Assembly: GCA_963971425.1 (NCBI GenBank)
Contig: OZ020526.1
Span: 2,570,180-2,634,179, forward strand
DNA: 64,000 nt
Reading direction: 5' to 3'
Source: Bryoerythrophyllum caledonicum
Lineage: Eukaryota > Streptophyta > Bryopsida > Pottiales > Pottiaceae
Below, piece by piece: positions 326 to 17,345 of this stretch; position 1 is the stretch's first letter; each line of letters opens with the position of its first letter. Both the position numbers and the translations under genes were made by a program. The notes under the pieces were generated by a model that worked only from the letters and a program-made list of their open reading frames with translations, was not told where the DNA came from and made no database searches.

Positions 326-2599
326 TTGAATGCCCCCCCCTCCCGGCTCAAAACCCTCCCTCTCAATACAGGAACCCCCCCACTCTGCTCAGAAATCCTC
401 CCTCACCGAAACTTAAAACTCCATCACGAAACTGTTAACCCACTCCCCCCGAATCTGCTCACGGGAAGACCCATTACAGTCTATAGCCCCTCACACCCTT
501 CTGGGAAATCTAAACCCCAGCCCGCAGCGACCTCCCTTTTTGCAGCGACCTCCCTTTTTGCAGCGACCTCCCTTTTTGCAGCGACCTCCCTTTTTGCAGC
601 GACCTCTCCCGAGCCCAAACCCGACCTTCCCAACGACACCAAAAACGAGGGTTGTGACCTACCTAATCCCCCCTGCGACCCCCCTGTAGGCAATAGCGAC
701 CTACCTCTCTTCAAAAGAGACTCCTCTAACATCCTCAGAGACCCCTCTCCCTCACATAACGACTTCCCCCCTCCCCATAGCGACATTCCCTCCTCCCATT
801 ACCTCACAGTAGACAAAGCAATGAAGGGTAACACCAGGGATAGCTCCAGCGCCCACATGGAGATAGAGGCCATGGAGGACAACTCCACAACTACCCCAAA
901 CACGAAAACACCAAGAAGGATGGACAAGGAAGGTGGGAGCAGCAAGAAAAGCAAGATATCCCCGAGACAAAAAGGTAAGATAATCTCCACACCAGAACTA
1001 TGCTCCTTCAAATTTTGGATGGGCTTCCAAGCCATGGAAGCAATTGCAATTGAAGAGGGAGCTGAACCTCTATTTAGTGGTGAAACGGTGGAAGACATGG
1101 TCACTAGAGGGCTAAAACCGGAGGAGGCCAAGGAGGTAAGCATTGCAAGGGTAGCATTCCCCCGAATCCCACAAGTGCTATACCCGATGTCAAGGAAATG
1201 GGAGGTTGGACAACACTACAACCTCACCCAAATTCCTTTCGACATCCCCACAAACGAGAACTCAGGTATGTCACTAGACTTTCATGTTGGAATTCACTTT
1301 GAAATCCCAAAAACCCCTATTATGCATGATGAGGTAAAGGAGATGGTCATTGCAAGGTTAAAAATGATGAACATTTCTCTTGGCAAGCAATTAATTGACC
1401 CTATAGCTATTCAATGTTTAAGCATCAAACAAGGGAAGATTAAGGGGGTATGGGCGGGAAGCGTTAAGTTACACTTGCTCAAACCCGAAGTTGATGGGTT
1501 GATGTTACTAAAAGGCATTAGACCCTTTATTCTTAAAATTGAGGAAGAACTAGTTGTTGGCAAAGTTTGCAAGGCCTACCAAGGTATTTCTAAAGGTACT
1601 AACCTCTCCGTGAAAGTCAAAAGTGATGCATTGAAGGATATCACGGCCCAAGCACTCTTCAAGGAAGTGCTCGAAGATAGTTTCCGCCGAGGCTTCGAAT
1701 TCGAGCTAACGGGAGTACAAAAGAAATATGAGGACTCCCACGCCTTCCTCATCACCACCACCCCCAAGCAAGTGAAGAAAATCCTCCTCCACCAAGCGAC
1801 CGCCCAACATGAAGTTTTGGAAACAAGACAAGTGCTCGAAGTCAATGGGCCAAAAGGTAAACTCGAAACCAAAGCTAAAAAAGATGCACTAACCTTAACC
1901 TTATCTCCCCTCCCCATTCACTTGGATGTAGTGCACACCACCCACGAAATTTACAAAGTCATGGGTGGTGCAAATGTCCGCTCCATATGGTTCCACAAGG
2001 ATAACGGCACTAGCCATAATGGCAATGCCAATATTTTATGTGCTAACCCTATTGTGTATAGGACCTTTGTGGGGAAAACCCACATCATTGGAGGTAACTA
2101 TGTGGATTTTGCACCTCACCGACGTAGCTTGGAAGGAGACACCCCTCCCACCATGGAAGAAATCAAATCCTTTGGATTTGATGACATCAACACGGCCATT
2201 GTCAACACCATGACCACCTTCCAAACACAAGACAAGACCAACAATGTGACCAAGGAAGAACTAGTGGCAATATTGGAAGAAAATAACAAGAAAATTCGGG
2301 AGGAGAACAAAGAATACGCCGATATGAAGAGCGAGGAGTTGAAGAAACAAATGACAAGCGTGCAAGACTCCATGAAGGCCGCCCTTGCTACACTACAAGC
2401 CATGGCAAGCACTATGTCCACCCCAATGCTTGAAGATGGAAGGCCAAACAAATTGTGGTCTAGAGGTGGCTCTCAATGGCTGAGTAGAGCTCCGAAATTT
2501 CTGGTGAGGAGGGGTGAGGGACTCAGTCTCAGAGAGTGGAGACACGAACAACAGGAGGTTGCTGGCCCGTTGTATGTCCCTAGTGTGCTTCAGATTTGA
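326..2599 (+). CDS. LINE ORF1-type protein, upstream divergent copy A
   Basis: An open frame whose conserved core (from about 1000 to 2440) matches, residue for residue at roughly half the positions, the C-terminal part of the second ORF at 2893-6585. Shared blocks include FKFWMGFQ/LKFWMGFQ, AFPRIPQ-LYP, TQIPFDIP, LKG-RPFILK, TLTLSPLPI and VDFAPHRRSL. The N-terminal third is Pro/Ser/Asp-rich low complexity with an 18-bp tandem repeat. A likely initiator is ATG 821, just before the shared MEIEA/MEVEA motif; the ATG at 326 lies in the low-complexity part. The C-terminus ends in a Lys/Glu-rich coiled-coil-like segment. After about 2455 the frame runs about 48 codons into unrelated sequence. I know no named fold for this core. 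It is either a remnant of a related LINE or a second ORF1 of the same element. Confidence 0.6.
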   Translation: MNAPPSRLKTLPLNTGTPPLCSEILPHRNLKLHHETVNPLPPNLLTGRPITVYSPSHPSGKSKPQPAATSLFAATSLFAATSLFAATSLFAATSPEPKPDLPNDTKNEGCDLPNPPCDPPVGNSDLPLFKRDSSNILRDPSPSHNDFPPPHSDIPSSHYLTVDKAMKGNTRDSSSAHMEIEAMEDNSTTTPNTKTPRRMDKEGGSSKKSKISPRQKGKIISTPELCSFKFWMGFQAMEAIAIEEGAEPLFSGETVEDMVTRGLKPEEAKEVSIARVAFPRIPQVLYPMSRKWEVGQHYNLTQIPFDIPTNENSGMSLDFHVGIHFEIPKTPIMHDEVKEMVIARLKMMNISLGKQLIDPIAIQCLSIKQGKIKGVWAGSVKLHLLKPEVDGLMLLKGIRPFILKIEEELVVGKVCKAYQGISKGTNLSVKVKSDALKDITAQALFKEVLEDSFRRGFEFELTGVQKKYEDSHAFLITTTPKQVKKILLHQATAQHEVLETRQVLEVNGPKGKLETKAKKDALTLTLSPLPIHLDVVHTTHEIYKVMGGANVRSIWFHKDNGTSHNGNANILCANPIVYRTFVGKTHIIGGNYVDFAPHRRSLEGDTPPTMEEIKSFGFDDINTAIVNTMTTFQTQDKTNNVTKEELVAILEENNKKIREENKEYADMKSEELKKQMTSVQDSMKAALATLQAMASTMSTPMLEDGRPNKLWSRGGSQWLSRAPKFLVRRGEGLSLREWRHEQQEVAGPLYVPSVLQI
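524..606 (+). repeat. 18-bp tandem repeat in ORF1 copy A
   Basis: About four and a half perfect units of GCAGCGACCTCCCTTTTT encode the repeating hexapeptide AATSLF. The perfection of the units suggests recent expansion. Confidence 0.9.
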
Positions 2600-3660
2600 G
2601 AGGAGGGGAGGCTATCAGTTACATGTGTTGGGCAGGGACGTTTTGAACACTAGATCTGCAAAAGGTGAACCGTGGAAGAGCTGCTGAAGTCATTTTTGAG
2701 TGGTGTTTAGATCTGAAGCGGGGAGACACACGTGTTGGTACACAGATCTGTACTTCTCAGCTCATCATACGGTAGGATCTGGAGTAGATCTAGAGAGGGT
2801 TACCGAACCTGAACGCCCCCCCCCCTTGAGTCCCACCGCCCTTCTCCAATCCAGACCTCGTCAACACCATTGAGAACAACAACGAGTCAAGAGTGCAGCG
2901 TTGCTGCCATTGCATCAACGCCCTTCATCACCTTCAGGCCACCTCTTATCCCCCCCTCATCTCCTTATTTCTTCCTTATTGCATCATTGTTAGACTCACG
3001 TTATCATTTTGCTCTCTTAGTAACACATACAAAGTACAAAATAGATCTAACATCGCTTGTATAAGTTGTTTGTGCATCAGATCTGAAAGACAACACTGCA
3101 GAACAACCTCTGAAGTGAAGGAAGACACGATATACCTTACAGATCTGCCCCAAGGCAACATCAACGCACCATATCAGGCTATCTCTACTCACTTCCATCT
3201 CTATTTTGCACTAGTTCAGCTGATCCATAGCAACACTACACACTTCAGCACATCCACACACACTAGAGGTAGTACACAGAAATCTCACTATGTATACACA
3301 TGCACAAAGCTCTACATCATAATACTAACAGAACACTTCAATAAGCTTGTGTGTATAGATCTCGGGCGGAAGCGCTCAAAATCTTCTCCAGATCTGAATC
3401 TACCTTCGCTCCAACAACAAGGAAGCACACCATCAACACCGCAACAAACGACACGGCAACAAGAGCGGACGAAAATACAACGCAACAGCCAACACATCTG
3501 CGACAACCCCATCTACAGCACAACAGGACCTCACAGCAAAGATTCGACAATACAAGGTGACAACAACAACATACAACACGCAACGGAGAGCACCTCCAGA
3601 CCAGAGAAGACAAAGGTGGACTGCTGCCCCTCCACAACAAAGATCTGCAACCGACGTCAT
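2600..3660 (+). promoter_or_regulatory. Leader with clustered AGATCT palindromes (putative LINE 5' UTR/promoter)
   Basis: Between 2652 and 3646 the exact hexamer AGATCT occurs ten times (2652, 2709, 2744, 2786, 3043, 3079, 3141, 3357, 3390, 3641), six of them followed by GA or GC as AGATCTG. One AGATCT per about 4 kb is expected by chance. The cluster lies between the two ORF1 copies, just where an internal LINE promoter would be. An open frame runs through the later part, but its residues look non-conserved. Regulatory function is inference from position and repetition only. Confidence 0.45.
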
Positions 3661-6585
3661 CCCCGCACCAAGATCGCAGCACGCAACAACACTGCATCTG
3701 GAAGTGAAGTGCAACAACTCCACAACAAAAACCGATTCAACTCATCATCGAACCGAGGATCAACCCTCATCTACACAACAGGGAGTACACTCAACACACC
3801 TTCTCCTCTCACTTCCTTCACTCGCATTCCTTACCTCCATCTATCCCCTACTGCAGCCCTCCCTTCCCCTCCCCTGTTTCTTCCCACGCCCTCACCACTC
3901 CGCCCACCCCTCCCACCCCTGTCCATCTCCCCCTCCCTGCCCCTCCCACTACTCTCCTCACTCACTCTGTTTCCCTCCCCTCTCTCCTCTTCCTCCCCGA
4001 ACACCCCCTCCCCACTACTCTCCTCACTCTCCATAGACAACGACCATACTGATCAGTATACAGTCCCACTCGATCCCTGCAGCGACAGTGCTGGTCAGCC
4101 CACAGACCCCACCGTAACCCGTAGCGACTTAGCTAAAACAGATAGTGACCCCGTCGATTTGTATAGCGACCCTGCTAACATCCGTTACGACCCTATCAAG
4201 TCTCACCCAAACCCTACTGCTCGTGCCAGCGACCCTGCTGCCCGAGGCAACGAACCTGCTACCTGTGCCAGCGACCCTACTGATTATACTAACGACCCTA
4301 CTAATTGTGCCAGCGACTCTGCGAATTATACTAACGACCTTGCTGATAAAACCAGCGACCTTGTTGCTCACTTCAGCGGCCTTGTTGATTGCTCCAGCGC
4401 CCCTGTTGATCGTTCCAACAACCTTGTTGATCGCTCCAACAACCCTGTTGATCGCTCCAGCGACCCTGTTAATCGCTCCAGCGACCCTGTTGATCACTCC
4501 AGCGATCCTGTCAATCGCTCCAACGACCCTGTTCCTTATGCTAACGACTGTGTTCCTTGTGCTAACGACTGTATTTCTTGTGCCAGCGACCCTATTCCTG
4601 ATGTTAGCGACCCTGCCGTTTGTACCAGCGACCCTACTGACTGTGCCAGTGACCCTGCTACTGGTGTTAACGACACTGCTGCTTGTACCAGTGACTCTGC
4701 TGATTATGCCAGCAACCCTGCTGCTCGTGCCAGCGACCCTGCTGCCCGTGTCAGCGACCCTACTGCTCGTGCCAGCGACCCTGCTGCCCGTGCCAGCGAC
4801 CTTGCTGCTCGTGCCAGCGACCCTACTAATCCTCATAAACACCCTGCTGATTGCAACAGAGACCAAGGTGATCCCTGTAGCGACCCAATAACATTTCAAT
4901 ACGACCTCCCCTCACAGGACAGCACAAGTATGGACCAGTGGAGTAGTAGACGCACTCTCATGTATGGAGACGCCATGGAGGTAGAAGCAAGCGGTGAGAC
5001 ACACAAAAGATCCCCGAGCATTGCCCCCACAACAAGCCAAGACGAAGTATCCCTTTCCAACAAGAAAAAGAAGAGTTCCAACAATGAAGGTATGATGCAC
5101 ACTCTTGACCTAGATGCATCCTCCCTCAAATTTTGGATGGGCTTTCAAGTGATGGAAGATATGGCAAAAGAGGAGGGACTTGAGCCACTAACTTGTGATG
5201 AATCCATACCTAGCATGATCACAAGAGGAATTAGAGAAATGGAGGCCAAGGAAATCTCCTTAGCAACTCCGGCATTCCCAAGAATCCCCCAAATCCTCTA
5301 CCCTTGTGCAAGAAAAGGAATCGTGGGCCAGCACCTCAATGTAACACAAATCCCATTTGACATCCCGGTTAATGACACTACGGGGCTTGCCCTAGATTTT
5401 CATGTTGCAATTCATTTTGAGTTATCTAACCTTGTACTCATGCATGATGATGTCAAAGCTATGGTGATTGATAGGTTAAAGTTCATGGAGATTGAAGTCG
5501 GCAAAAAGGTAATTGATCCCATCTCCATCCTTTGTATGAGTTTAAAGAATGCCGGGAAAAAGGGAGTATGGGCGGGGGTAGTCAAATTGCACTTGCATAA
5601 GCCAGAGATAGATGGCATTGGACTTCTCAAAGGTCTTAGACCCTTCATTTTAAAACTAGACAAACAATATGCTCTTGGCAAAGTTTGCAAAACATACCAT
5701 GATATATCAAGAAACTCTAACCTCTCTATCAAAATAAAAAGTGAATCTCTTAGAGGCATGACCGCTAATGATCTTTTTGTGGAGATCCTTCACAATGGTT
5801 TTAACCGTGGGCTTGAGTTTGAAGTAACAAGTGTGCAGAAAATCAAAGAGGAATCCCATGCCTTCATTATTGCACCAACCCCACAACAAGCGGCAAAAAT
5901 CAAGCTCCACAAAGTGGCAACCAACCACGAGCTTTTGCAACCAACGAACATTGTTGGAACTACATCGAAGGGCATCAACCGTGAGAGTAAGGCAAAGAAG
6001 GACGCCATTACCTTAACCCTATCACCACTACCTATTCGTATGAGCATGGTTGACACTAGTGAAGAGATTCACAAAATCATGGGAGCGGGTAATGCCACTC
6101 ACATTTGGTTCCATCGGGATGATGGGATTAGACACAATGGTAGTGCTAATGTTCATTGCATCAACCCTATAATCTATAGGAAGTTTGTAGGGAAAGTTAT
6201 CAAGATGGAAGGACATTACGTGGACTTTGCACCACACCGAAGAAGTCTTGATGGAGTAGAGCCACCGACCAAGGAGCAAATTGTGGAATTTGGATTCCTA
6301 GATGTTAACAAAGCTATTGTTAACACCGTGGAGGCCTTCAAGATTGATGAGCCAACAAATGTCCTCACGAAGAATGACATCATTGCCATCGTGGATTCCA
6401 AGGTGGAAGAAAACAACAAAAAAATAAGACTAGAGACGCAAGCATATGCGGACAAGAAACATGATGAGTTGAAGGCCCAAATGATCACCATCCAAGAGTC
6501 AATGAGCACGGCCCTCGCATCCTTGCAAGCCATCACCAAAGTTATGACCACCCCAAGAATTGAAGGTGAGACGTCAAACATGTGA
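2893..6585 (+). CDS. LINE ORF1-type protein, copy B
   Basis: A 1230-codon frame ending in TGA at 6583-6585. Parts seen: a non-conserved 5' part over the AGATCT leader; a Pro/Ser/Leu-rich CT-rich tract (about 3790-4030); a long heptad array built on SDPAARA-like units (about 4090-4830); and a conserved core from about 5115 that matches copy A and ends in a charged coiled-coil-like segment. The functional start may be ATG 4930, just before the MEVEA motif that matches MEIEA in copy A. In LINEs, ORF1 proteins usually bind RNA and form the ribonucleoprotein; that role is by analogy, since no RRM or CCHC knuckle is visible here. The frame ends with ATG-TGA, and ORF2 continues immediately in another frame. 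Confidence 0.65.
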   Translation: MQRCCHCINALHHLQATSYPPLISLFLPYCIIVRLTLSFCSLSNTYKVQNRSNIACISCLCIRSERQHCRTTSEVKEDTIYLTDLPQGNINAPYQAISTHFHLYFALVQLIHSNTTHFSTSTHTRGSTQKSHYVYTCTKLYIIILTEHFNKLVCIDLGRKRSKSSPDLNLPSLQQQGSTPSTPQQTTRQQERTKIQRNSQHICDNPIYSTTGPHSKDSTIQGDNNNIQHATESTSRPEKTKVDCCPSTTKICNRRHPRTKIAARNNTASGSEVQQLHNKNRFNSSSNRGSTLIYTTGSTLNTPSPLTSFTRIPYLHLSPTAALPSPPLFLPTPSPLRPPLPPLSISPSLPLPLLSSLTLFPSPLSSSSPNTPSPLLSSLSIDNDHTDQYTVPLDPCSDSAGQPTDPTVTRSDLAKTDSDPVDLYSDPANIRYDPIKSHPNPTARASDPAARGNEPATCASDPTDYTNDPTNCASDSANYTNDLADKTSDLVAHFSGLVDCSSAPVDRSNNLVDRSNNPVDRSSDPVNRSSDPVDHSSDPVNRSNDPVPYANDCVPCANDCISCASDPIPDVSDPAVCTSDPTDCASDPATGVNDTAACTSDSADYASNPAARASDPAARVSDPTARASDPAARASDLAARASDPTNPHKHPADCNRDQGDPCSDPITFQYDLPSQDSTSMDQWSSRRTLMYGDAMEVEASGETHKRSPSIAPTTSQDEVSLSNKKKKSSNNEGMMHTLDLDASSLKFWMGFQVMEDMAKEEGLEPLTCDESIPSMITRGIREMEAKEISLATPAFPRIPQILYPCARKGIVGQHLNVTQIPFDIPVNDTTGLALDFHVAIHFELSNLVLMHDDVKAMVIDRLKFMEIEVGKKVIDPISILCMSLKNAGKKGVWAGVVKLHLHKPEIDGIGLLKGLRPFILKLDKQYALGKVCKTYHDISRNSNLSIKIKSESLRGMTANDLFVEILHNGFNRGLEFEVTSVQKIKEESHAFIIAPTPQQAAKIKLHKVATNHELLQPTNIVGTTSKGINRESKAKKDAITLTLSPLPIRMSMVDTSEEIHKIMGAGNATHIWFHRDDGIRHNGSANVHCINPIIYRKFVGKVIKMEGHYVDFAPHRRSLDGVEPPTKEQIVEFGFLDVNKAIVNTVEAFKIDEPTNVLTKNDIIAIVDSKVEENNKKIRLETQAYADKKHDELKAQMITIQESMSTALASLQAITKVMTTPRIEGETSNM
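4090..4830 (+). repeat. Degenerate 21-bp (heptapeptide) array in ORF1 copy B
   Basis: About 35 units of 21 bp encode variants of S-D-P-A-x-R-A (for example SDPVDRS, SDPTDCA, SDPAARA). The 3' units are most alike, the 5' units most diverged. Because 21 is a multiple of three and the unit carries no stop in several frames, long meaningless frames arise on both strands. The array is a disordered, acidic/serine-rich linker if translated. Confidence 0.85.
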
Positions 6586-9500
6586 AGAAGGAAGACCGCA
6601 AGACAAAAGGTATCATACACATACCATCCCTTCTTATACACAAGACCCACACATTATACAATAGAAGACAATACAAGGTAGAATACTTGATAGCCTACAT
6701 AGTAGAATACATGGTAGAATACATGGTATTGAACAAAATAGTCTACATGGCACAATATATAAGAAAATACTTGGCCGTATACACAGACGTACACCCCCTA
6801 GGATACACATACTTCAATACATACACCCTACCCTCATGTTGTATTAAAAATAAATACATAAAGTATACCAAATATATACTATCTTGCACAAAAATACCTG
6901 GTATGAATACTGATACACACACATGTACAATTACGGATACAAATACTGATTTGCATACAGATATAAATACTGATCAGAATACGGATACGAATACTACTCT
7001 GAATACGAATATAAATACTGATATGTACATCAATACTAATATTGATACATATATAAATACAAGTACTAATACCAATACCAATACCCATACGTATGCTAAA
7101 ATAAAAATGGGGACACGCACTAATATAAACATAAACATAAACACTAGTACTAAGCCAAACACAACTATACACACATACACAAAGACAACTACACACCACC
7201 AAAAAATAATAATACACATACACACATACAAAGACAAATATACACAACCAAAAGAAAAGTACAAAACAAAACACCAAAACCACACACAAAAACAAGCAAT
7301 CCTAAAACAAAATAAAAAATCCCTCCTACTACAAACTACTCATACTCAATGGAGAAGACAAATACACATCCACCCTATAGTATACCATGCTACACAAAAC
7401 AACATAGATCTTCTTACTAGTATTTACTATGTAGCAAGTAGAAAAGACATACACATGCTTTCAAACAAACACAACCTCAACAACATAAAAATAATAAAAG
7501 CTCTAAAATTCACACAAAAATCAAAAATTATGAAACACAATATCAAACCCACACATTATAAACTTCTACTACTTGTAGGCGGAGAATTAGAAATAAATCC
7601 GGGACCGTATACGATCAAGTATACAAATACAGCTTCATATACATGTACGGGGACAGATACATATATGGATACATATAAAAATACATATCAGAATACGGAC
7701 ACAAATACATCTACAAGTACAGATACAAATACAAGCATAAACACATATACGGAAAAAAATACTAATGTAAATACAAATACAAGTAAGGATATGGACACGG
7801 ATACAGATACAGGTATAAATACTCAAACAAGAACTTATCAACCATTGCAAAAACCAATATACAAAATAGAAAGAATGATAATAATAATATACTACTTCTC
7901 ACACAAACTAAGTAAAAATTCCAAAAAGAAAAGTATCAAAACCAAAATAAAAAATAAAAGGAATAAGAGAAAAGATGGGATTAAAATAAATAATAGAAGG
8001 AAAAAGAAAATAAGTATCATAACTACATATAACAAAATAGGAAACAATATAAATGAAAACAATCATAAATTTTTTGTAATAAAGATACATAAGGGTAGAA
8101 GGGATTCTAAACCCAAAAACCATCAAAAGGCAAGGAATACTAGAATGGCTAAAAATAGAAAAATGAAGGAGAGTAAAAAGGGATATAATAAATTAAATAG
8201 AAAGAAGATAGATATTTATAAAATTTCAGAAGTCTTAATTAGAGCAAGTAATATTAAAAATAAAATAACAAAAATGGAGCGGATATGTAAGAAGAAAAGA
8301 AAGGGTAAAGTAGAAAACCATTATCATAAGAAAAGAAATAAGAAGAACATAACAATAAACAGTAGTACTAAAAATAGAAAATGCTCCCTAAGAAATTCAA
8401 AAATAAGGGATGGAAAATGCACGAAATTAGTAATGGGAATTAGTTATAATAAGAATACAAATGTGAAGAACATATCTATAAACAGCAGTACTAAAAATAG
8501 AAAATGCTCCCTACGAAATTCAAAAATAAGGGATGGAAAATGCACAAAATTAGTAATGGGAATTAGTTATAATAAGAATACAAATGTGAAGAACATAGCT
8601 ATAAACAGCAGTACAAAAAATAGAAAATCCTTCCTAAGAAATCAAAAAATAAGGGATGGAAATTGCACCAAATTAGTAATGGGAATAAATAACAATAAGA
8701 ATACAATTAGGAAGAATATAGCTAAAAACAGCAATACTAAAAATAGAATATGCTTTCTAAGAAATGCAAAAATAACGGATGGAAAATTAACCAAACTTGT
8801 AATGAGAAACAAAAATGACAGAGTAAAATTAAATAGAGAAGATAGGGATAATAAAAGAGTACAGATTAAAAATAGAAATTGGAATATAAACTACATGGAT
8901 AAATGGAAAATTAATAGTAATATTAAAAACTATATATATAAAGTTGGGGAGAGTTTGCGATTAAATAGTAGAAATTTGTTGAGAGTATGTAGAATTATTA
9001 AAATAGGAGGTGGGATTTATGTTTCGCCGGCCGGTTGGGCGCCGAAGGTGCCAAAAATAGACTTTCTAAAATTAGAAATTCTAATCAAAGTAAGAATATA
9101 TACGAATCTGATTGAAATAAATATCAATCTGTTTTTAGAAATCATAGTTTTAGACAAATTAGGTTTAGAAAGAAATCTTTTAGAAAACTCATTTTTTCAA
9201 TATACGGGTACATATACTGATACGTATTCTGATACGTATACTGATACATACACCGATGAGTATACTTATAAATATACTGATACAAATACTGGTATGTATA
9301 TAAATACAAATATTTATACTTGTACAAATGCAAATACCAATACAAATAGTGGTACGTGTACTCATACAAATACTAACACAAATACTAACAAAGATACTGA
9401 TACAAATACCAAGACAAAAACCGTGACTTATACTAATACAAACATACAAAAGAATACTAATATAATACCACATAAAACTTCATACACACACACAAAGACA

Positions 9501-11345
9501 ACCACACACCATCAACGAAACACATACATATACATACACACATACAAAGACAAACACACACAATCAAAAAAACACAAATACCAAAACCACATTCAAAAAC
9601 AAAAAATTCTAAAACAAAACAAGAAACCCATCTACTACAAACTACTCATATTAATTGGAGGAGACATGGAGACTAACCCAAGACCCATGCCGAACATATT
9701 AAAAAGACACCCCGCTTCGCACAAAAAGTATACCAAAACATATTTTATACCAAATACTAATACAAACATCAAAACAAACAATTGTACAAACCACAAAGTA
9801 TATAATAACACCGCATATGAAAAAAAGGATTTAAAAGCCACTTTAAAAACCAACATAAACCCACATACAAATAGTCTTAAACATAATAGTTACATATGCA
9901 CACGGACAAAAACAACCAAGGTAAAATACAACCAACTTTACATACATCCATACTCTACTAAAACAAAAACAACCACAAAAAACACATGGACTAAAAATAA
10001 ACTAAAGACGAAAACAACTACACCTACTATAAAAATAAATAAACCCACAACTCATACACAAAATACAAATATCCACCTACCCCCAAACCAACAAGTCATT
10101 AATAACACAATAAAGCTTTTAAAATACACCACTAAACATATATACCACAAACTTCTACTACTTCTAGGAGGAGACATTGAAACCAACCCGGGACCCATGC
10201 CCAATATACTAAAAAGACATCCTACACCACATAAGAAAAATGCCAAAATCTACTTTATACCTAATACCATAAAACTCCAACCAGAATATGAACACATTGC
10301 AAAACCCTTCGCACCATTTCTAAAAAACACACATACATTACACCACATACAAAACACTTCCCACCCAAACATTGCCCAATACATACAACAAAAAAATACG
10401 CATCCACCACCCCACATCTTATATGCACTAATAATCACTACTCATCCAAACATAGATGAATGTAACCAACTTCTAAATCCACAAAATTGGAACACAATTA
10501 CATGGACTAATACACTCCTACAAACCTTGCTAACCTTACAAAACCCACCAGAACGACACATTTACACTCCACACCCCTATACTGAATTCCTAGTAGACAA
10601 CCAAAATATTATAAACCATGAGAACTCAATACATAAAAGACTATACGACTTCTTACATAGTCAAGACATACCACCCTCAAATGATATAATAAAACTAAAA
10701 TTCCCTTACCTCCCTAACAACCTCATAAATGAATCACTAAAATGCCTAGACCCTATACCAGAATACACCCACCCACCCCCACCTCTTCCCTACATCCCTC
10801 CTCAAAACCAAAATCAAAACATTAGACCAAACCAAGAAAATACATACATAATCACATGGAATGCCTCCTCACTAAACACTGCCCTTCCTAGCTTACAAAC
10901 TCTAGTCGCAAACACAGACACACCACCGGCTCTTATAGTTATACAAGAAACAAAACTAACCGCCACAAAATCTACAAAATATATACAAAATATATTTCAA
11001 GACTATAAACTCATCTTTAACAATACACATGCACTTACAAGATGCATGCAACAAAGGAGACCATACACACCGGGCCGCGGTGGCCTCCTTACATTAATAC
11101 ACAAAAAATATACATTCCCTGACAACATCAACAAAATCCCTACCCCAATGCACATATCACCATACATTCAAATAATTAAAATCACTAATCACCCACTACA
11201 ATCGTGGTTAATCTTTCACATGTATATGCCATCCCATCCCGAAGATACTAGATTTCTCTTAGATATACAAACACTATTACAACCCATATTAATAATCATC
11301 CCAATCATACATACCTATTATGTGGAGACTTCAATAGAGACATAG
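6582..11345 (+). CDS. LINE ORF2, first part: Thr/Asn-rich leaders, 2A-like motifs, APE endonuclease start
   Basis: The frame opens at the ORF1 stop with no ATG until about 6711, so reinitiation or frameshifting would be needed. It holds three tracts of alternating Thr with Asn/Asp/Tyr (about 6900-7160, 7610-7830, 9200-9480), a Lys/Asn/Arg-rich basic block (about 7870-9180) with four 123-bp repeats, and three 2A-like sites (7560-7607, 9636-9686, 10146-10196). From about 10845 an APE-type endonuclease begins: ITWNASS, then IQETKL with its catalytic Glu. The frame is lost between about 11282 and 11320; the expected LCGDFN block follows in another frame, so a single-base indel (or sequence error) interrupts the nuclease. 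The + strand is strikingly A/C-rich and G-poor. Function: target DNA nicking by APE; the role of the leaders is unknown. Confidence 0.72.
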   Translation: MKKEDRKTKGIIHIPSLLIHKTHTLYNRRQYKVEYLIAYIVEYMVEYMVLNKIVYMAQYIRKYLAVYTDVHPLGYTYFNTYTLPSCCIKNKYIKYTKYILSCTKIPGMNTDTHTCTITDTNTDLHTDINTDQNTDTNTTLNTNINTDMYINTNIDTYINTSTNTNTNTHTYAKIKMGTRTNINININTSTKPNTTIHTYTKTTTHHQKIIIHIHTYKDKYTQPKEKYKTKHQNHTQKQAILKQNKKSLLLQTTHTQWRRQIHIHPIVYHATQNNIDLLTSIYYVASRKDIHMLSNKHNLNNIKIIKALKFTQKSKIMKHNIKPTHYKLLLLVGGELEINPGPYTIKYTNTASYTCTGTDTYMDTYKNTYQNTDTNTSTSTDTNTSINTYTEKNTNVNTNTSKDMDTDTDTGINTQTRTYQPLQKPIYKIERMIIIIYYFSHKLSKNSKKKSIKTKIKNKRNKRKDGIKINNRRKKKISIITTYNKIGNNINENNHKFFVIKIHKGRRDSKPKNHQKARNTRMAKNRKMKESKKGYNKLNRKKIDIYKISEVLIRASNIKNKITKMERICKKKRKGKVENHYHKKRNKKNITINSSTKNRKCSLRNSKIRDGKCTKLVMGISYNKNTNVKNISINSSTKNRKCSLRNSKIRDGKCTKLVMGISYNKNTNVKNIAINSSTKNRKSFLRNQKIRDGNCTKLVMGINNNKNTIRKNIAKNSNTKNRICFLRNAKITDGKLTKLVMRNKNDRVKLNREDRDNKRVQIKNRNWNINYMDKWKINSNIKNYIYKVGESLRLNSRNLLRVCRIIKIGGGIYVSPAGWAPKVPKIDFLKLEILIKVRIYTNLIEININLFLEIIVLDKLGLERNLLENSFFQYTGTYTDTYSDTYTDTYTDEYTYKYTDTNTGMYINTNIYTCTNANTNTNSGTCTHTNTNTNTNKDTDTNTKTKTVTYTNTNIQKNTNIIPHKTSYTHTKTTTHHQRNTYIYIHTYKDKHTQSKKHKYQNHIQKQKILKQNKKPIYYKLLILIGGDMETNPRPMPNILKRHPASHKKYTKTYFIPNTNTNIKTNNCTNHKVYNNTAYEKKDLKATLKTNINPHTNSLKHNSYICTRTKTTKVKYNQLYIHPYSTKTKTTTKNTWTKNKLKTKTTTPTIKINKPTTHTQNTNIHLPPNQQVINNTIKLLKYTTKHIYHKLLLLLGGDIETNPGPMPNILKRHPTPHKKNAKIYFIPNTIKLQPEYEHIAKPFAPFLKNTHTLHHIQNTSHPNIAQYIQQKNTHPPPHILYALIITTHPNIDECNQLLNPQNWNTITWTNTLLQTLLTLQNPPERHIYTPHPYTEFLVDNQNIINHENSIHKRLYDFLHSQDIPPSNDIIKLKFPYLPNNLINESLKCLDPIPEYTHPPPPLPYIPPQNQNQNIRPNQENTYIITWNASSLNTALPSLQTLVANTDTPPALIVIQETKLTATKSTKYIQNIFQDYKLIFNNTHALTRCMQQRRPYTPGRGGLLTLIHKKYTFPDNINKIPTPMHISPYIQIIKITNHPLQSWLIFHMYMPSHPEDTRFLLDIQTLLQPILIIIPIIHTYYVETSIET
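6900..7160 (+). repeat. Low-complexity Thr/Asn/Asp tract 1
   Basis: Period-6 degenerate sequence of the AATACT/GATACA type encodes alternating NTDTNT-like residues. It is followed by a TKTTTHHQ...KQNKK block that recurs after the third tract near 9495-9630, so leader plus downstream block form a duplicated module. Confidence 0.75.
7560..7607 (+). other. 2A-like ribosome-skipping motif 1 (ELEINPGP)
   Basis: Residues read KLLLLVGGELEINPGP in the ORF2 frame, with N-P-G-P at 7596-7607. Canonical 2A peptides carry D-(V/I)-E-x-N-P-G-P after a Leu-rich helix. Here Asp is replaced by Glu and V/I by Leu, so activity is less certain, but the essential NPGP is present. Confidence 0.65.
7610..7830 (+). 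repeat. Low-complexity Thr/Asn/Asp tract 2
   Basis: A second period-6 tract encodes T-D-T-Y, N-T-S-T and D-T-D-T strings directly after 2A-like motif 1, starting the putative second product. Confidence 0.7.
8343..8834 (+). repeat. Four 123-bp tandem repeats in the basic region of ORF2
   Basis: The marker AAGAACAT (or AAGAATAT) recurs at 8343, 8466, 8589 and 8712, an exact 123-bp (41-codon) period. Each unit encodes a basic block with STKNRK, SLRN-KIRDGK and CTKLVMG. Units 1 and 2 are nearly identical and unit 4 is most diverged. The phase-preserving period shows the block expanded while translated, or at least kept its frame. Confidence 0.9.
9200..9480 (+). repeat. Low-complexity Thr/Asn/Tyr tract 3
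   Basis: A third period-6 tract (T-Y-T-D-T-Y, N-T-N-T) is followed by the same TKTTTHHQ and KQNKK block as tract 1 and then by 2A-like motif 2. Confidence 0.75.
9636..9686 (+). other. Degenerate 2A-like motif 2 (DMETNPRP)
   Basis: Residues read KLLILIGGDMETNPRP. The Gly of NPGP is Arg (AGA at 9681-9683, one transition from GGA), which should abolish skipping in known 2A peptides. The flanking PMPNILKRHP is shared with motif 3, so the two are a duplicated module of which this one has decayed. Confidence 0.75.
10146..10196 (+). other. Canonical 2A-like ribosome-skipping motif 3 (DIETNPGP)
   Basis: Residues read KLLLLLGGDIETNPGP, a full match to D-(V/I)-E-x-N-P-G-P, with N-P-G-P at 10185-10196 and a Leu-rich upstream helix as in picornaviral 2A. 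Skipping would occur between Gly 10191-10193 and Pro 10194-10196, releasing the APE-RT polyprotein with an N-terminal Pro-Met-Pro-Asn. 2A-like sequences are known in several APE-type LINEs of trypanosomes and animals. Confidence 0.88.
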
Positions 11346-14300
11346 CGCTAATTGGCCGCCAAAATGGAAACCATCACACCCCCCCTCAAAACATTGATTA
11401 CCAATGGCGCCGCTTCACAGAAAACTTAAACTTCACTTACATCAATACCGATACACAATTCTCTAGACAAGGTGGCTACAATTATAGTGATTGGAGTCTA
11501 ATAGATGGTTTCTATATAAATACAAACAACAACACACAATACACCTCCACAACAAACAAAGATATTATTCTCAATTCGGACCACTCACCCGTACAACTGC
11601 ACATCCCAAATAACACACTAATTAGTAGAACTCCTACAATCCCAAACAAAGACACTATACGCATACTCAACCCCATCCCAAAAACCAACATAGAAAAATT
11701 CAACACAAAATTCTTCGAAGAAAACACCGTACAAATAGACTCCCTCATAAACACTCTTGAAATCAATAGTCAATTAACACAAACACAATGGCAAGAAGCA
11801 TGCCACTCTCTAGACAAACTCATCAATAAAATCTCTGATACACTAGAACAAACTTGTAGAGCACACCCAATACCCCAAATGACAAACAAAACCTCTCAAC
11901 AAGGTGGGTATCTACCCCGCAAACTTTCTAAAACTTGGAAACAACACTTAACCACATACCATACCATACGTAAAACCATTAGAATTGTAAAAAACAACCC
12001 TCAATGGCGGAACCACCCCATACACAACGAACTACTAAATATACAACACATCCAAATCCCTACCCCGCCGCCTCCGGACCTTCCCCACGATACATGGATA
12101 AAAGATATCGCGATAATTGCAAAAAATGCCAACATACAAGCCCGGAAAATAATCACAAAATACACAAAAGAAAACATTAAAAAAGCCATCTCAAAATACA
12201 GAAAACTATACGAAATCAGCCCCAAAAAAATTAACAAAAAAGTCTTTAAAAACCTTGAATCTCCACCAATGGATTGTATCAAAGATCAATATAATAATAT
12301 TCTAACTAGCCCCGAAGACATTGCGAATGAAATATTTAACCAACAAACAAAAACCAATAGACCAACAGTACCAACATGTAATTACCAGCCACAACATACA
12401 ATAGAATGCACATGTGCAATACGCCAATACCCTTGGCACGACCTGGACGGATATACCCTTGACAAACGGGGCGAACCAAAAATTCCACTACATAAATACC
12501 TCAACAGAGCCACATACGACACATGCCTCCAAAATCTTGGAAATAATAAAGCCCCAGGCCCAGACCGCATACCAAATTCAATACTGAAAAACATGCCTCC
12601 AAGATTTCATAAACTACTATTCCTATTCTTTTCTCACTGCTATAATCAAAAACAAATACCAAATTCATGGAAAACAAGTGCAACAATTCTACTATACAAA
12701 AAAGGCGATCCATTCATGCTACCCAATCATAGACCAATTGCACTAGCTAACACAATATATAAGCTTTTTACCAGTACACTCACCCACATACTATCCTCAT
12801 ACGGCGAAAAATTCAAAATACTACATGATAGTCAAGAAGGATTTAGAGCGGAGAGAAGTACCGCACGGCAAATACAAACTATAATAGCCGCATTAGAAGA
12901 CGCAAAATTTACTAACCAAGATATATACATACTATACGTGGACTTCAAAAATGCCTTTGGCTCAATTGATCATGCCAGACTTCTAGCAATAATGTCAGAC
13001 CTTGGCTACCCAAAAGAGGCAACTACACTTGTTGGAAACATCTATTCCCAATCATCTACTTGCAATATCGGCGAACACTTTGGAAAAACAAAACCTATAC
13101 CCATCCAAAGAGGAACTATACAAGGGGACACCCTTAGCCCATATTTATTTATTATATTTTTAGAACCACTACTTAGATGGCTAGAAAGAGGTAATAATGG
13201 ATATACTTTCGGCACATCACAAGTCACAATAAACTCCGCCGCATACGCAGATGACCTAGCCACCATAACTAACAAAATCAAATCAATCCAAATACAACTC
13301 CATAAAATTGATAGATATTGTAAATGGGCGGGCATGGATGTGGGAGTTCCAAAATGTGCGGCTACCGGATGCCCAAACAAATCTAAATTGAACCCTACCA
13401 CTTTCAAAGCCCTAATGCAAACCTCCAACATCAACTACCGCAACCAACCAATCCCTATACTACACCAAAACGAACCATACATATACCTAGGTACAAATCT
13501 TGTTCCCTCACTAAAATGGAAAATCCAAATCCACACTACAACCACAAAGCTCATCAAACAATGCAAAGAACTAACAACATGCCCAGCCACCATGAAACAA
13601 AAAATAAAAATGGTTGATACCGTCCTACGCCCAGGTGTGGCATACAGTTTCTACGGTGTACCATACTCTATGCCAGCTATCAAAAAACTTGATAAAAAAA
13701 TAATAGCCATACAAAAAACCATATGTGGATTACCAAAATGTATGTCAAACGCAATAACCCAACTACCACATAACCTATTTGGACTTGAAGCTTTCTCCCT
13801 CAAAAACGCATACCTCCGATGTATAGGTGAACAACTGCAAAATGCTTTAAACGATAAAGGAAGACTTGGGAAAATATATAATGGATTAACTCACTATGTC
13901 CTTGCCCGATATGGTGGTGCTGAAAACATACCGAGAATTAAAAAAAGTGACTGCATAAGATCACCAATAACACGAACATTTTTCTTATTAAAACATATAG
14001 CTAAAGCCCATCTTAAAAGTACGATCCCGAACTTCCTCACTAATCCTACGACACTAGAAATACTATGGCGCCAAGAAACATTAAATCATAACACACTCAA
14101 TGCCCAACTCTCCCAAAAGCTTCTACAAAAACTCCTCTCAAAAAATATTTTTGAACTAAACCAAATTACCTTACCTAACGGTACACACATCATGAACAAT
14201 GAAGACTTCAAAACCTACCACTTCACCCCATCTAAACTAATAAAGAGTGCCCTAAGTGTTGCTAAACAACTATTTTGCCACATAACATGCCCCACTATAT

Positions 14301-15832
14301 GTCATACCCCTTGCAACATACACCCATATTCTCATACACTTAAAGATCCATTCATCACCCTCAACAATAACATCATCCCAAGAAATATTCTCACACCAAC
14401 CAATCCCCCTAACCCTCCACATACATACCACCCCCGCCCCCCAACATACATCCCCAAAAACCCTACCACATACCCCATTAATAATATCATAAACCATAAA
14501 CATATCCAACACACAGACACAAATAACATACAAAATACCTACACAAAATACCTATGCCAATGGCAACACAATGATAATACATACAATAAATGGCTCCCCC
14601 AAAGAGACCTTTTTCCACGGCATGACGCCAACACCTCCACACATAACACTGAAAAATTAAAACAATACTACCGAAAGATCCAAAACAAAATATACTCAGA
14701 TATCATCCTTGCCCACCACCCACAAGAACAATCCTCAGACTCAAGGTCCGTAACACCACCCATAATTATCCCACTCTTAAACATCTACACAACAGAATGC
14801 AACCCCGAAAATGATATCTGTACATCCTCAAACACAATTCAAATACATAACAATCAAGCACATCTATACGAAGAAAATGGCCGACATTTACACACCATAC
14901 CCATTACCCGGCTCCAATGGTTATGGAACCAATATCATACAAAATTACAATCCCCTACAAACATTGAACCAACAACCCAACCCTTTGAAACCGAACTAAT
15001 ATGGCTTTACCAAAGATATAAATATCGAATACCAAAAACTGACCCCCTCAAAAATGCGCAATACACAATACCCACCCCCATTTTAGACTCACTCATATCA
15101 TCCTTTAACATCGAACACTCATACTTTTCCTCCCCGATCACATGTCCTACCAAACTAAATAAATTCTACTCACCGTACGAAAGAGACAAAATATTTGGAT
15201 CCCTAGGCAAGGCCTTTGAACACAAATGGATCGGAAATGGAATAGCTCACCCCCACAACGAGAAAGACATAGAACAAACCATACATTGGGCTAGACTTGC
15301 CGCCAAACACGATCCAAATAACACAAAAACAATCATCGTCACACCGAACAACAATTGGTACCAAAACAACAACCAACATTCAAACCCATTCCCAGATTCC
15401 CACATCATTGCAGTATTCGAAGCAGACACAATACCATACGAAGAACCTAATATCCCACCCGAGCTAAAAAAACCCCGAATAGAGCCATCTACATTACAAA
15501 TACTATGCGTCCATCATCAAAATCAAAACCTGGGCTCCCTAGAACAACTTGCGGAACTTACCTCCATAACAGACAATCTAGACATACAACGACCATACAC
15601 AAAACCGGCCCCACCAACACCCATACAAACCCCCGTAAACAAAAGTAAAAATTGGTCAAAATTAAACTATGACAACAACACATTAAACTACTCCGTCATA
15701 CCTCCCCCTCTCCCAGACTACCCAACTTATACCACACCAAAATTTAACCCTACATACAGTTATTACACCGACGGCTCCTTTAAACCACCGGAACAAAACA
15801 CTACAAATCATCACAACAAAATACAAAAATGA
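11282..15832 (+). CDS. LINE ORF2, second part: end of APE nuclease, reverse transcriptase, start of RNase H
   Basis: Continues ORF2 in the next frame. First comes the rest of the APE nuclease: LLCGDFNRD (about 11315) and NSDHSPVQL (about 11575), carrying the Asp/Asn and Asp/His catalytic residues. Reverse transcriptase motifs follow: NNKAPGPDRIPN (about 12540), HRPIALANTIYK, ILYVDFKNAFGSIDH (catalytic Asp, about 12930), IQRGTIQGDTLSP (about 13110), AAYADDLA (catalytic Asp pair, about 13240) and YLGTNLVPS (about 13480). A thumb and a long linker follow. The frame ends just after YYTDGSF (about 15760), the first RNase H catalytic Asp. RT copies the element's RNA at the nicked target. All RT catalytic residues are present, so decay looks recent. 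Confidence 0.88.
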   Translation, partial: THINNHPNHTYLLCGDFNRDIALIGRQNGNHHTPPQNIDYQWRRFTENLNFTYINTDTQFSRQGGYNYSDWSLIDGFYINTNNNTQYTSTTNKDIILNSDHSPVQLHIPNNTLISRTPTIPNKDTIRILNPIPKTNIEKFNTKFFEENTVQIDSLINTLEINSQLTQTQWQEACHSLDKLINKISDTLEQTCRAHPIPQMTNKTSQQGGYLPRKLSKTWKQHLTTYHTIRKTIRIVKNNPQWRNHPIHNELLNIQHIQIPTPPPPDLPHDTWIKDIAIIAKNANIQARKIITKYTKENIKKAISKYRKLYEISPKKINKKVFKNLESPPMDCIKDQYNNILTSPEDIANEIFNQQTKTNRPTVPTCNYQPQHTIECTCAIRQYPWHDLDGYTLDKRGEPKIPLHKYLNRATYDTCLQNLGNNKAPGPDRIPNSILKNMPPRFHKLLFLFFSHCYNQKQIPNSWKTSATILLYKKGDPFMLPNHRPIALANTIYKLFTSTLTHILSSYGEKFKILHDSQEGFRAERSTARQIQTIIAALEDAKFTNQDIYILYVDFKNAFGSIDHARLLAIMSDLGYPKEATTLVGNIYSQSSTCNIGEHFGKTKPIPIQRGTIQGDTLSPYLFIIFLEPLLRWLERGNNGYTFGTSQVTINSAAYADDLATITNKIKSIQIQLHKIDRYCKWAGMDVGVPKCAATGCPNKSKLNPTTFKALMQTSNINYRNQPIPILHQNEPYIYLGTNLVPSLKWKIQIHTTTTKLIKQCKELTTCPATMKQKIKMVDTVLRPGVAYSFYGVPYSMPAIKKLDKKIIAIQKTICGLPKCMSNAITQLPHNLFGLEAFSLKNAYLRCIGEQLQNALNDKGRLGKIYNGLTHYVLARYGGAENIPRIKKSDCIRSPITRTFFLLKHIAKAHLKSTIPNFLTNPTTLEILWRQETLNHNTLNAQLSQKLLQKLLSKNIFELNQITLPNGTHIMNNEDFKTYHFTPSKLIKSALSVAKQLFCHITCPTICHTPCNIHPYSHTLKDPFITLNNNIIPRNILTPTNPPNPPHTYHPRPPTYIPKNPTTYPINNIINHKHIQHTDTNNIQNTYTKYLCQWQHNDNTYNKWLPQRDLFPRHDANTSTHNTEKLKQYYRKIQNKIYSDIILAHHPQEQSSDSRSVTPPIIIPLLNIYTTECNPENDICTSSNTIQIHNNQAHLYEENGRHLHTIPITRLQWLWNQYHTKLQSPTNIEPTTQPFETELIWLYQRYKYRIPKTDPLKNAQYTIPTPILDSLISSFNIEHSYFSSPITCPTKLNKFYSPYERDKIFGSLGKAFEHKWIGNGIAHPHNEKDIEQTIHWARLAAKHDPNNTKTIIVTPNNNWYQNNNQHSNPFPDSHIIAVFEADTIPYEEPNIPPELKKPRIEPSTLQILCVHHQNQNLGSLEQLAELTSITDNLDIQRPYTKPAPPTPIQTPVNKSKNWSKLNYDNNTLNYSVIPPPLPDYPTYTTPKFNPTYSYYTDGSFKPPEQNTTNHHNKIQK

Positions 15833-17093
15833 ACCTGCACATATATTCACCGATTGTATAAATGCACTCTACCTACTAAACACTCAAATAACACACCCAA
15901 CCCTTCACAACAGTCACCCCGACCAAACCATGCTAACATCAATGGTACAAATGTTACAAAACCGTACACAAATCACAACCCTTCACAAAGTCAGAGCCCA
16001 TGCCAACATTGATGGCAACGAACAAGCAGACAAACTTGCAAAAGAAGGCCGAGAAAAAACACACAAAAACGCCAAAGACCCTCACGAACATGCTCATGCC
16101 ACCCCATACTACTTTCAAAAAGAAGATTGGCCTTCCAAAGAAGATACCCCCGACAAAGGCCCAATTAGATTTCTGGGCAAATATCTCAAAAAACAAGACC
16201 TCTACAACAACCTGGATACAATCTCAGAAAATATTCCTAACATAGAAAAATGGACTAACAATAACGACATAGACAATGAACTCTCTACAAACTTTTGGAA
16301 AAACCCCATCATCTCAGACTCACAAATAACGTGCCTCATCAAATTCCGTACGGGTCAGTACATGGGAAACGCTCGCAAACAACTCTTCTTTGGAATAGAA
16401 AGATTCCCATCCATAACATGCCCCATATGCCCCTCAACGGACCCCGACACATGGCTTCATGTGCTACTCAAATGCCAAAACCACCACATACACTCCCTAA
16501 TTGTTAAAAGACATAACAAAGCGGTATGGGAAGTCCGAAAACTAATCACCTCCTACAATAAATCGAGATGTTTCATACTTATGAACGCCGGCACTTTTAA
16601 TAGCAATCCACAAGAAAACACGGTCCCCCCATGGCTACTTCCATGCTCATGTATGACCCAAAGATGTCATTGCAACGCTAGGTTCAAACCGGACATTCTT
16701 TGTGTCAAAGGTTTACCATACAACGACCCACCACCCGAGAACATCAACCAAGACTACACCATTCAATTCATCGAATTTACATATTGCAACGATAGATTCT
16801 CCCCGGAAACAATACAAAACAAAATAGATAAATACCAACCCCTCATAGACGACATCATTGCCCTCGGCTGGAATGTGGACCCCCTTATTGTTATCACATC
16901 CGGCGCTCGTGCCACCACCTTTATCCCATCTATGAAAACTCTTGAAGATACCTTCAAGATACCCATCGATACAATTAAAACTACCTTTAAAAATATCAAC
17001 ACCATCGCTATTCAACATGCCATGTCTATTTTACTGCATAAACGCAAAATCGAAAACAACCAAGTCCTCCCCGATAGGCAAGACCCCCCTTAG
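15831..17093 (+). CDS. LINE ORF2, third part: RNase H end, CCHC finger, restriction-like endonuclease
   Basis: The frame resumes with FTDCINALYLL (third RNase H Asp) and HANIDGNEQADKLAKEG (His/Asp end). About 40 residues that normally lie between YTDGS and FTD, including the catalytic Glu, are missing at the junction. Downstream is a zinc finger, CPIC-x7-H-x4-C-like (about 16417-16470), as in R2 and Dualen elements. Next comes an RLE-like block: RFKPDILCVKG (about 16680), IQFIEFTYCND (about 16765), then NKIDKYQPLIDD and a Gly-Trp-x-Val-x-Pro strand. K-P-D ... E ... K-x2-K-Y fits the PD-(D/E)XK pattern of LINE restriction-like nucleases. I am fairly but not fully sure of the RLE call, as it rests on spacing and motif shape. 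Confidence 0.75.
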   Translation, partial: EPAHIFTDCINALYLLNTQITHPTLHNSHPDQTMLTSMVQMLQNRTQITTLHKVRAHANIDGNEQADKLAKEGREKTHKNAKDPHEHAHATPYYFQKEDWPSKEDTPDKGPIRFLGKYLKKQDLYNNLDTISENIPNIEKWTNNNDIDNELSTNFWKNPIISDSQITCLIKFRTGQYMGNARKQLFFGIERFPSITCPICPSTDPDTWLHVLLKCQNHHIHSLIVKRHNKAVWEVRKLITSYNKSRCFILMNAGTFNSNPQENTVPPWLLPCSCMTQRCHCNARFKPDILCVKGLPYNDPPPENINQDYTIQFIEFTYCNDRFSPETIQNKIDKYQPLIDDIIALGWNVDPLIVITSGARATTFIPSMKTLEDTFKIPIDTIKTTFKNINTIAIQHAMSILLHKRKIENNQVLPDRQDPP

Positions 17094-17345
17094 GAACTTC
17101 GTCACTCTGTCTCTTCCTGATTGGCTGCCTGTTTGGTTTTGCTTTTTGTTGTTTAGTTAGTTTGGTCGTGGTTGGTTGTTGTTGGGTGGCTTCTGGCTAC
17201 TCGTTACATAGTGTCTACCCTCGAAAGAGGGAAGTAGTTCCATTTCGCTAATTCCTTGTCCGGTGGGCATGGTCTTAGCAATGGAACGAACAGACACTTT
17301 ATTCACGCCGGTTCCCTTCGGGAACCGGCGTTCTTCTTCTTCTTG
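17094..17345 (+). other. LINE 3' UTR with two hairpins and (TTC)n tail
   Basis: Hairpin 1 is CCCTC-GAAA-GAGGG at 17218-17231 with a GNRA-type loop. Hairpin 2 is CGCCGGTTCCC-TTC-GGGAACCGGCG at 17306-17330, a perfect 11-bp stem. It is followed directly by (TTC)5 at 17331-17345. LINE 3' ends often carry a hairpin recognised by their RT and a short simple-repeat tail. Confidence 0.7.

Follow-up and report, generated by a model that had tools for sequence, protein, structure and literature searches.

The stretch of DNA analysed here (64,000 nucleotides, hereafter the window) raises the question of whether a single LINE can carry two different types of nuclease together with 2A-like sites. Our best reading, which we consider probable, is that both nuclease types and 2A-like sites are combined in one Dualen/RandI-like LINE, and the sequence likewise makes it likely that a non-LTR retrotransposon of this Dualen/RandI-like kind, giant in size, lies on the plus strand as a broken copy. 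The features are collected in Table 1. Besides the long open frames of ORF1-B (2830-6582) and the first part of ORF2, two further plus-strand frames of ORF2 extend over 11252-15829 and 15687-17090. ORF2 contains, in order, a leader with three 2A-like sites, APE, reverse transcriptase (RT), a weak chromodomain-like segment, a PCIF1-family module which shares its open frame with RT, RNase H, a CCHC finger and an RLE-like block, and the scores for RT, PCIF1 and RNase H were above the curated Pfam cut-offs. A preliminary description of the window had reported a LINE with RT, which was borne out by the Pfam RVT_1 match, and a CCHC finger, which was also found. This copy has two breaks, a frame change within APE and a frame change with an apparent deletion within RNase H.

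Table 1. Features of the element, with positions in the window
Feature	Position	Strand	Evidence or remark
ORF1-A, partial, runs past window start; terminal domain related to ORF1-B	2..2596	+	open frame
Spacer between ORF1-A and ORF1-B	2597..2829	+	frame table, composition, stop table
ORF1-B: N-terminal part rich in repeats (21-nt units), C-terminal domain conserved	2830..6585	+	
ORF2 first frame: low-complexity leader, 2A-like sites, first APE half	6570..11342	+	
2A-like site 1, GGELEINPGP	7578..7607	+	E and L at first two core positions
Four in-frame 123-nt repeats (41 aa) in leader	8321..8808	+	
2A-like site 2, GGDMETNPRP	9657..9686	+	M at second core position, R for G
2A-like site 3, GGDIETNPGP	10167..10196	+	canonical
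APE endonuclease, across two frames	10836..11593	+	
Overlap of both frames (frame break within APE)	11252..11342	+	
Reverse transcriptase; AAYADDL at 13238-13258	12518..13810	+	Pfam RVT_1 2.4e-26
Chromodomain-like segment (weak)	14480..14617	+	Pfam Chromo 0.0049
PCIF1-family module, PF12237	14948..15352	+	44.9 bits vs cut-off 31.1, E 1.3e-11
RNase H; a frame change breaks it between YYTDGSF and HIFTDC	15761..16061	+	
CCHC finger CPIC..H....C	16419..16475	+	C/C/H/C layout similar in R2 chains
RLE-like motifs KRHN, RFKPD, FIEF; Cys/His-rich insertion between RHN and KPD	16506..16787	+	
3' untranslated region, structured; 12-bp hairpin (17305-17331) then TTC run	17094..17345	+	

Scanning the entire window in all six frames returned three 2A-like sites (7578, 9657 and 10167). 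The core (D/G/C/N)(V/I)ExNPGP, as defined in the available text of PMC12846837, is matched by site 3 only; site 1 departs from it at two positions (E and L in place of D/G/C/N and V/I), as does site 2 (M in place of V/I, and NPRP in place of NPGP), which is presumed to be inactive. The earlier claim of embedded 2A-like sites is correct for a canonical site among three, but had overlooked that the other two are non-canonical. From composition, 6e-6 canonical sites would be expected in the leader frame, and the polyprotein would be split at such sites. In L1Tc-type LINEs the 2A sits before APE, and APE-type LINEs with 2A are not known to carry more than a single nuclease. The present element differs from the L1Tc type in having three related sites, one of them canonical, the motif D(V/I)ExNPGP itself being known from L1Tc and other APE-type LINEs (PMC4981915, available text).

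For the first half of APE, no Pfam family was matched up to E 5, and three exonuclease III sequences were matched in the PDB (E 1.3e-4 to 1.4e-4); for the second half, Exo_endo_phos_2 was matched at 0.0016, under the curated Pfam cut-off, and a PDB search up to E 10 found no APE relative. The region contains WNASSL, IQETKL, GRGGLL, GDFN and SDHSPV, which we take to be the APE motif set. The N-terminal APE reported previously is indeed present upstream of RT, an arrangement shared with Dualen/RandI, but here it occupies two frames, with the second half below the Pfam cut-off, and the break had escaped notice. The same applies to RNase H, another Dualen/RandI trait: its downstream piece passed the Pfam cut-off (7.1e-7, 29.9 bits in comparison to 25.8), but the break inside it had been missed, and the piece with the catalytic E has apparently been lost in this copy.

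The best two PDB matches of RT were R2 proteins (1.2e-32 for R2 in comparison to 1.7e-20 for human L1). Three of five R2 chain sequences in the PDB outscored human L1 (116.6, 102.6 and 102.1 bits in comparison to 76.5 bits) and two, 8gh6 and 8ibw, scored below it (60.4 and 56.4 bits), and in the pairwise RT comparison the second R2 and one LINE RT of L001 were level at 110 bits. An RT tree of seven sequences, none of them from Dualen, set the window RT apart from the three LINE RTs taken from L001 and L002 with 92% support, but from R2 plus human L1 with only 57%. This phylogeny, which had been suggested for placing the element, gave no clear grouping with L1 or I.

The 3' end had been placed near 17345, in agreement with a composition shift at about 17 kb, the 12-bp hairpin and the TTC run, which is short; the border is based on one copy. 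The fold of 17091-17350 had a z-score of -4.83, and none of 200 shuffles was as stable. No Rfam family was found on 16800-18000 at E up to 1, and no tRNA by ARAGORN with the bacterial code. The poly(A) tail of plant L1 is absent, with the TTC run in its place, and the non-poly(A) 3' repeat of Dualen/RandI is present as this short run past the hairpin; as far as the table of PMC3747384 goes, all 8 green-algal RandI families have non-poly(A) 3' repeat tails, in comparison to poly(A) in 224 of the 233 flowering-plant L1 families.

The C-terminal block would be the second nuclease, and we regard it with moderate confidence as an RLE-like one. CCHC, RHN, KPD and E follow one another in R2 order within one ORF; the combined pattern, which was written after the sequence had been seen, occurred in 0 of 20,000 shuffles, and the shorter RHN...KPD pattern in 9 of 20,000. 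Of 793 ORFs ranked with a profile of three R2 sequences, the C-terminal one came first, at an E of 0.27, which is not significant, and with half profiles it took second (0.27) and third (3.1) place among the 793; no RLE match to the block was found in Pfam, PHROGs or PDB sequence searches, and a single-sequence AlphaFold model had a pLDDT of 34. For the reported pair of APE and RLE-like nucleases, the APE part is supported by each half separately, and the profile check proposed for the other part yielded R2-type motifs in order but no significant match. Such profile values and the empty database searches would be expected of an APE-type LINE of another clade, with one working nuclease and a C-terminal zinc finger that resembles RLE by chance. 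We consider this unlikely in view of the R2 motif order, the RT that is closer by score to three of five R2 sequences than to human L1, and the 3' tail, which is not poly(A). An even less likely explanation is that the PCIF1-like and chromodomain-like matches, both overlooked in the earlier list of domains, are compositional artefacts. The Chromo match (17.2 bits, E 0.0049) is below the gathering cut-off of 25.1, and a PDB search with the segment up to E 10 returned no chromodomain; with a profile built from two PCIF1 sequences of vertebrates, the PCIF1-family module was found at only E 0.18, behind another window ORF (0.15), and a single-sequence fold of the block had a pLDDT of 41, all of which would suit an artefact. 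Against it, the PF12237 match spans profile positions 8-144 of 176 and exceeds the curated cut-off by 13.8 bits, PCIF1 was the top match of the module among 177,635 PDB sequences, albeit at an insignificant E of 0.4, and neither PCIF1 nor Chromo was matched by control copies of the two segments (one reversed and two shuffled for each). The reversed chromodomain-like segment matched SelO at 0.3, and a search of phages with the PCIF1 segment gave no match. PF12237 matched neither in the genome of L001 nor in any of 14 control genomes, a comparison that therefore carries no weight.

The preliminary description drew a single ORF1 and a 5' boundary at 2457; the boundary was not supported, and ORF1-A, a second ORF1, had been missed. 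ORF1-A and ORF1-B share 49% identity over 597 aa and 56% over 480 aligned codons, with a dN of 0.33 and a saturated dS of 3.12 over these codons, and the pair is under purifying selection; ORF1-B matched no Pfam family above cut-off. The element may exceed 17 kb in length, because ORF1-A runs off the left edge of the window. Alternatively, ORF1-A could come from a separate member of the family, into or beside which an element of about 15 kb with one ORF1 was inserted from near 2457. We regard this as a serious possibility, although short of an even chance: the composition of 2501-3000 is unlike that of the ORFs on either side and the nucleotide homology of the two ORF1s stops near 2450, but tblastn (E up to 0.01) found no ORF1 or ORF2 remnant in 17346-64000, a comparison of 2380-2899 with 17290-17429 for a target-site duplication showed nothing beyond one 9-mer as the longest common word, and ORF1-A is open from base 2 with no stop within 865 codons while ORF2 is broken. 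Two elements would also be compatible with the dual-nuclease reading.

Among known systems, Dualen/RandI (APE, RLE and RNase H) appears to be the closest group, and the element may be called Dualen-like, membership being unproven because the RT tree lacked a Dualen sequence. The likeness lies in APE together with a putative RLE-like nuclease, RNase H and the non-poly(A) 3' repeat. In contrast, neither 2A-like sites nor a PCIF1 module, a chromodomain-like segment, a second ORF1 or a similarly great length were found described for Dualen in the available portions of the literature, and the host here is an apparent land plant rather than a green alga. Kojima and Fujiwara are said to have described a cysteine protease in Dualen in 2005; no protease family was found in the ORF2 pieces by Pfam, where the protease of Dualen may be absent or may escape detection. 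With R2-group LINEs the element shares the C-terminal block of C/C/H/C plus RHN...KPD...(D/E) and the best two PDB matches of its RT, whereas R2-group elements, to our knowledge, have neither APE nor RNase H. It resembles plant L1 with RNase H in having APE, RT and RNase H in a plant, but we know of no RLE in plant L1. Its PF12237 match links it to PCIF1, a cap-adjacent adenosine methyltransferase, from which it differs in the placement of the module inside a LINE polyprotein and in NPPF, the catalytic motif of PCIF1 methyltransferases, which is not conserved in an alignment with the human and zebrafish PCIF1 chains; an RNA-binding or cap-contacting module is therefore more likely than an active methyltransferase.

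In the available passages of PMC3636483 and PMC4640811, a single Dualen/RandI element carries both APE and a nuclease of the PD-(D/E)XK type, and R2-group elements have one ORF with RT and then the nuclease (PMC3636483). Those of PMC4640811 report RNase H in both Dualen/RandI and plant L1, and take the position of Dualen, with both nucleases, as a sign that APE-type LINEs arose through replacement of RLE by APE. Dualen/RandI is confined to green algae in the table of a 2015 survey (PMC4438587); it is annotated in cryptophytes as well as green algae. One sentence in the available text of PMC9033089 ties the centromeric location of CRM elements and some LINEs to an integrase-linked chromodomain, and we read the chromodomain as meant for CRM.

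Intact relatives would move via target-primed reverse transcription. ORF2 would be translated after ORF1-B, the stop of which overlaps the ORF2 frame, and StopGo at the third 2A site would free the leader and start a new protein with APE, RT, the chromodomain-like and PCIF1-like parts, RNase H and RLE. The nick for priming would come from one nuclease and the second-strand cut possibly from the other, the RNA template would be removed by RNase H, and the hairpin and TTC tail could serve as the start signal for RT. If the Dualen/RandI-like reading is true, the presence of a large Dualen relative in what seems to be a land plant would extend the range past green algae and cryptophytes, StopGo would be added to Dualen-type elements, a LINE would have acquired a domain of the cap-methyltransferase family, and the division of labour between two nucleases would become testable. 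A more speculative proposal, which we hold only tentatively, is that the element represents a lineage of land-plant LINEs longer than 17 kb, in which two ORF1 proteins under selection, two nucleases and StopGo are combined with a PCIF1 module, domesticated and catalytically altered, and a chromodomain-like reader; placed between RT and RNase H, these would bind capped RNA of the element itself or a chromatin target.

The combination of features was not described in the available portions of the open-licence literature searched (including PMC8226300, PMC3747384, PMC4640811, PMC12747079, PMC12846837, PMC7824862, PMC5348765, PMC3636483, PMC4981915, PMC4427930, PMC9033089, PMC5753468, PMC4438587 and PMC5408684). 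No relative or second copy was found in viral_contigs with RT, the C-terminal block and ORF1 as queries, nor any relative with the window-plus-R2 RT alignment. The same alignment identified two loci in genome_contigs (2 of 100 candidate stretches), which served solely as RT references; both come from bacterial MAG records, yet carry eukaryote-type LINE ORFs as judged by eye.

The element is a broken copy on the plus strand. The preliminary description had it as a LINE with two endonucleases, of which the APE is supported by its full motif set when both frames are combined and the RLE is probable. For the first half of the APE, the matches were PDB exonuclease III sequences at about 1.3e-4 and a PHROGs endonuclease family at 0.024; Pfam gave nothing up to E 5. 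The second half lies in a different frame and matched Pfam Exo_endo_phos_2 at 0.0016, under its cut-off, with no relevant PDB match. Since the two APE-bearing frames overlap at 11252-11342, the copy is broken there.

Open frames and segments of the element (ORF1-A a possible part)
Feature	Position	Strand	Remarks
ORF1-A	2-2596	+	open frame, continues beyond window edge
ORF1-B	2830-6582	+	open frame
ORF2 first frame	6570-11342	+	starts with low-complexity leader, internal duplications
Chromodomain-like segment	14480-14617	+	Pfam 17.2 bits vs cut-off 25.1
PCIF1 module, PF12237	14948-15352	+	44.9 bits vs cut-off 31.1

The RNase H was present as claimed but is interrupted between YYTDGSF and HIFTDC, and the short spacing suggests that the portion with the catalytic E was lost. 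Downstream of it lie CPIC-H-C, which agrees with the CCHC finger proposed earlier, KRHN, RFKPD and FIEF, in the same order as in PDB R2 sequences. Five distinct R2 sequences were retrieved from PDB, and a profile of three of them ranked the C-terminal ORF first of 793, though with an E of only 0.27, while half profiles ranked it second and third. The combined RLE motif pattern, composed after inspection of the sequence, occurred in 0 of 20,000 shuffles, and the shorter RHN...KPD pattern in 9 of 20,000; AlphaFold gave no usable fold for the block as a single sequence. The block is a probable RLE, not a proven one. A Cys/His-rich insertion at 16638-16673, LPCSCMTQRCHC, lies between the RHN and KPD motifs and is a possible extra zinc site.

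The reverse transcriptase was confirmed (Pfam RVT_1, 2.4e-26), and its best PDB matches were R2 sequences (9nl2, 116.6 bits; 9nl3, 102.6; 9dou, 102.1), followed by human L1 (76.5) and, below it, 8gh6 and 8ibw (60.4 and 56.4), which we take to be Bombyx R2. In a seven-sequence tree, the window RT was split with 92% support from three LINE RTs of two genome-contig loci (L001 and L002), and with only 57% from the two R2 plus human L1. In pairwise BLAST the two R2 reached 128 and 110 bits, against 110 for one L001 RT and 95 for L1. Together these results do not amount to a clade assignment. The L001 and L002 contigs are filed as bacterial MAGs (Sulfurimonas endosymbiont, Janthinobacterium) yet encode eukaryote-type LINE ORFs, and are thus probably eukaryotic contamination.

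Three related 2A-like sites, GGELEINPGP (7578), GGDMETNPRP (9657) and GGDIETNPGP (10167), were found in the ORF2 leader and nowhere else in a six-frame scan of the whole window. The embedded motifs proposed earlier are present, but only the third site matches the core (D/G/C/N)(V/I)ExNPGP (PMC12846837, in part), the others having two core mismatches each; in the same source the mutants D12A and N16A abolished activity. From leader-frame composition 6e-6 canonical sites are expected, and bare NPGP was present in 178 of 20,000 shuffles. Four in-frame 41-aa repeats at 8321-8808 of the leader lie in a C-poor, A-rich stretch that is unlike the remaining ORF2.

Two ORF1s are present in the window, sharing 49% identity over 597 aa; over 480 aligned codons identity was 56%, with dN 0.33 and a saturated dS of 3.12. 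Because differences reach 58% at third positions against 31% and 21% at first and second, both were under purifying selection. No Pfam family was above cut-off in either. ORF1-A may belong to this element or to another copy; simple nesting of one element in another is disfavoured, since 17346-64000 yielded no remnant of either ORF1 or ORF2. The 21-nt repeats at 4129-4899 of ORF1-B also hold open a 256-aa frame on the opposite strand, probably as a side effect.

The chromodomain-like segment, which matched no chromodomain in PDB, is only a lead. For the PCIF1 module the top PDB match was PCIF1 at an insignificant E of 0.4, and a two-sequence profile of vertebrate PCIF1 ranked it second among window ORFs, at an E of only 0.18; neither family was matched by the controls (one reversed and two shuffled copies per segment). 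Methyltransferase activity in this copy seems unlikely because the NPPF motif is not conserved.

At the 3' end, the fold of 17091-17350 was more stable than 200 of 200 shuffles (z -4.83), and a 12-bp hairpin followed by a short TTC run closes the region. This tail resembles RandI, in which 8 of 8 families have non-poly(A) tails, and differs from flowering-plant L1, in which 224 of 233 families have poly(A) (published table in PMC3747384, in part). An inverted repeat, GAGGGTG-TC-CACCCTC, lies at 17345-17360, immediately beyond the TTC run.

To our knowledge, Dualen/RandI is the only group with both nucleases. The window element carries an APE and a probable RLE; its C-terminal motif order follows R2, and its RT has R2 proteins as best PDB matches. 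Within the parts of the sources covered, Dualen/RandI is described with both nucleases (PMC3636483, PMC4640811), occurs in Chlamydomonas relatives and cryptophytes (PMC8226300, PMC12747079), is listed in green algae only in a 2015 survey (PMC4438587), and by term search is not named in a review of land-plant elements, one sentence of which is open to being read as a chromodomain in a LINE (PMC9033089). The part of the open-licence literature covered gave no report that places Dualen in land plants, pairs 2A with an RLE or puts PCIF1 inside a LINE; as coverage was partial and open-licence only, novelty of the combination is not established. In the best-supported account, intact relatives would move by target-primed reverse transcription with StopGo processing; that ORF2 would start after the ORF1-B stop, which strands the APE and RLE may cut, and what role the PCIF1-like module may have are steps that we infer.

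From base 1 to ~17.1 kb, the plus strand is traversed by long open frames, and A and C exceed T and G, a skew that stops at the element 3' end. The window looks eukaryotic from an Agenet domain at 26.5 kb (Pfam 1.2e-16) and a midasin/RNF213-like ORF (40011-41330, minus strand) with an AAA domain and PDB matches to midasin chains (2.5e-14) and RNF213 chains (3.8e-12); the Agenet gene points to a land-plant host. This ORF is perhaps part of a gene covering ~30000-47000, RNF213-like and in an apparent plant, to which adjoining minus-strand ORFs may contribute more exons. Two 300-nt direct copies at 21340-24606, 2967 bases apart and 78% identical, with inverted copies close by, are an unrelated repeat family.
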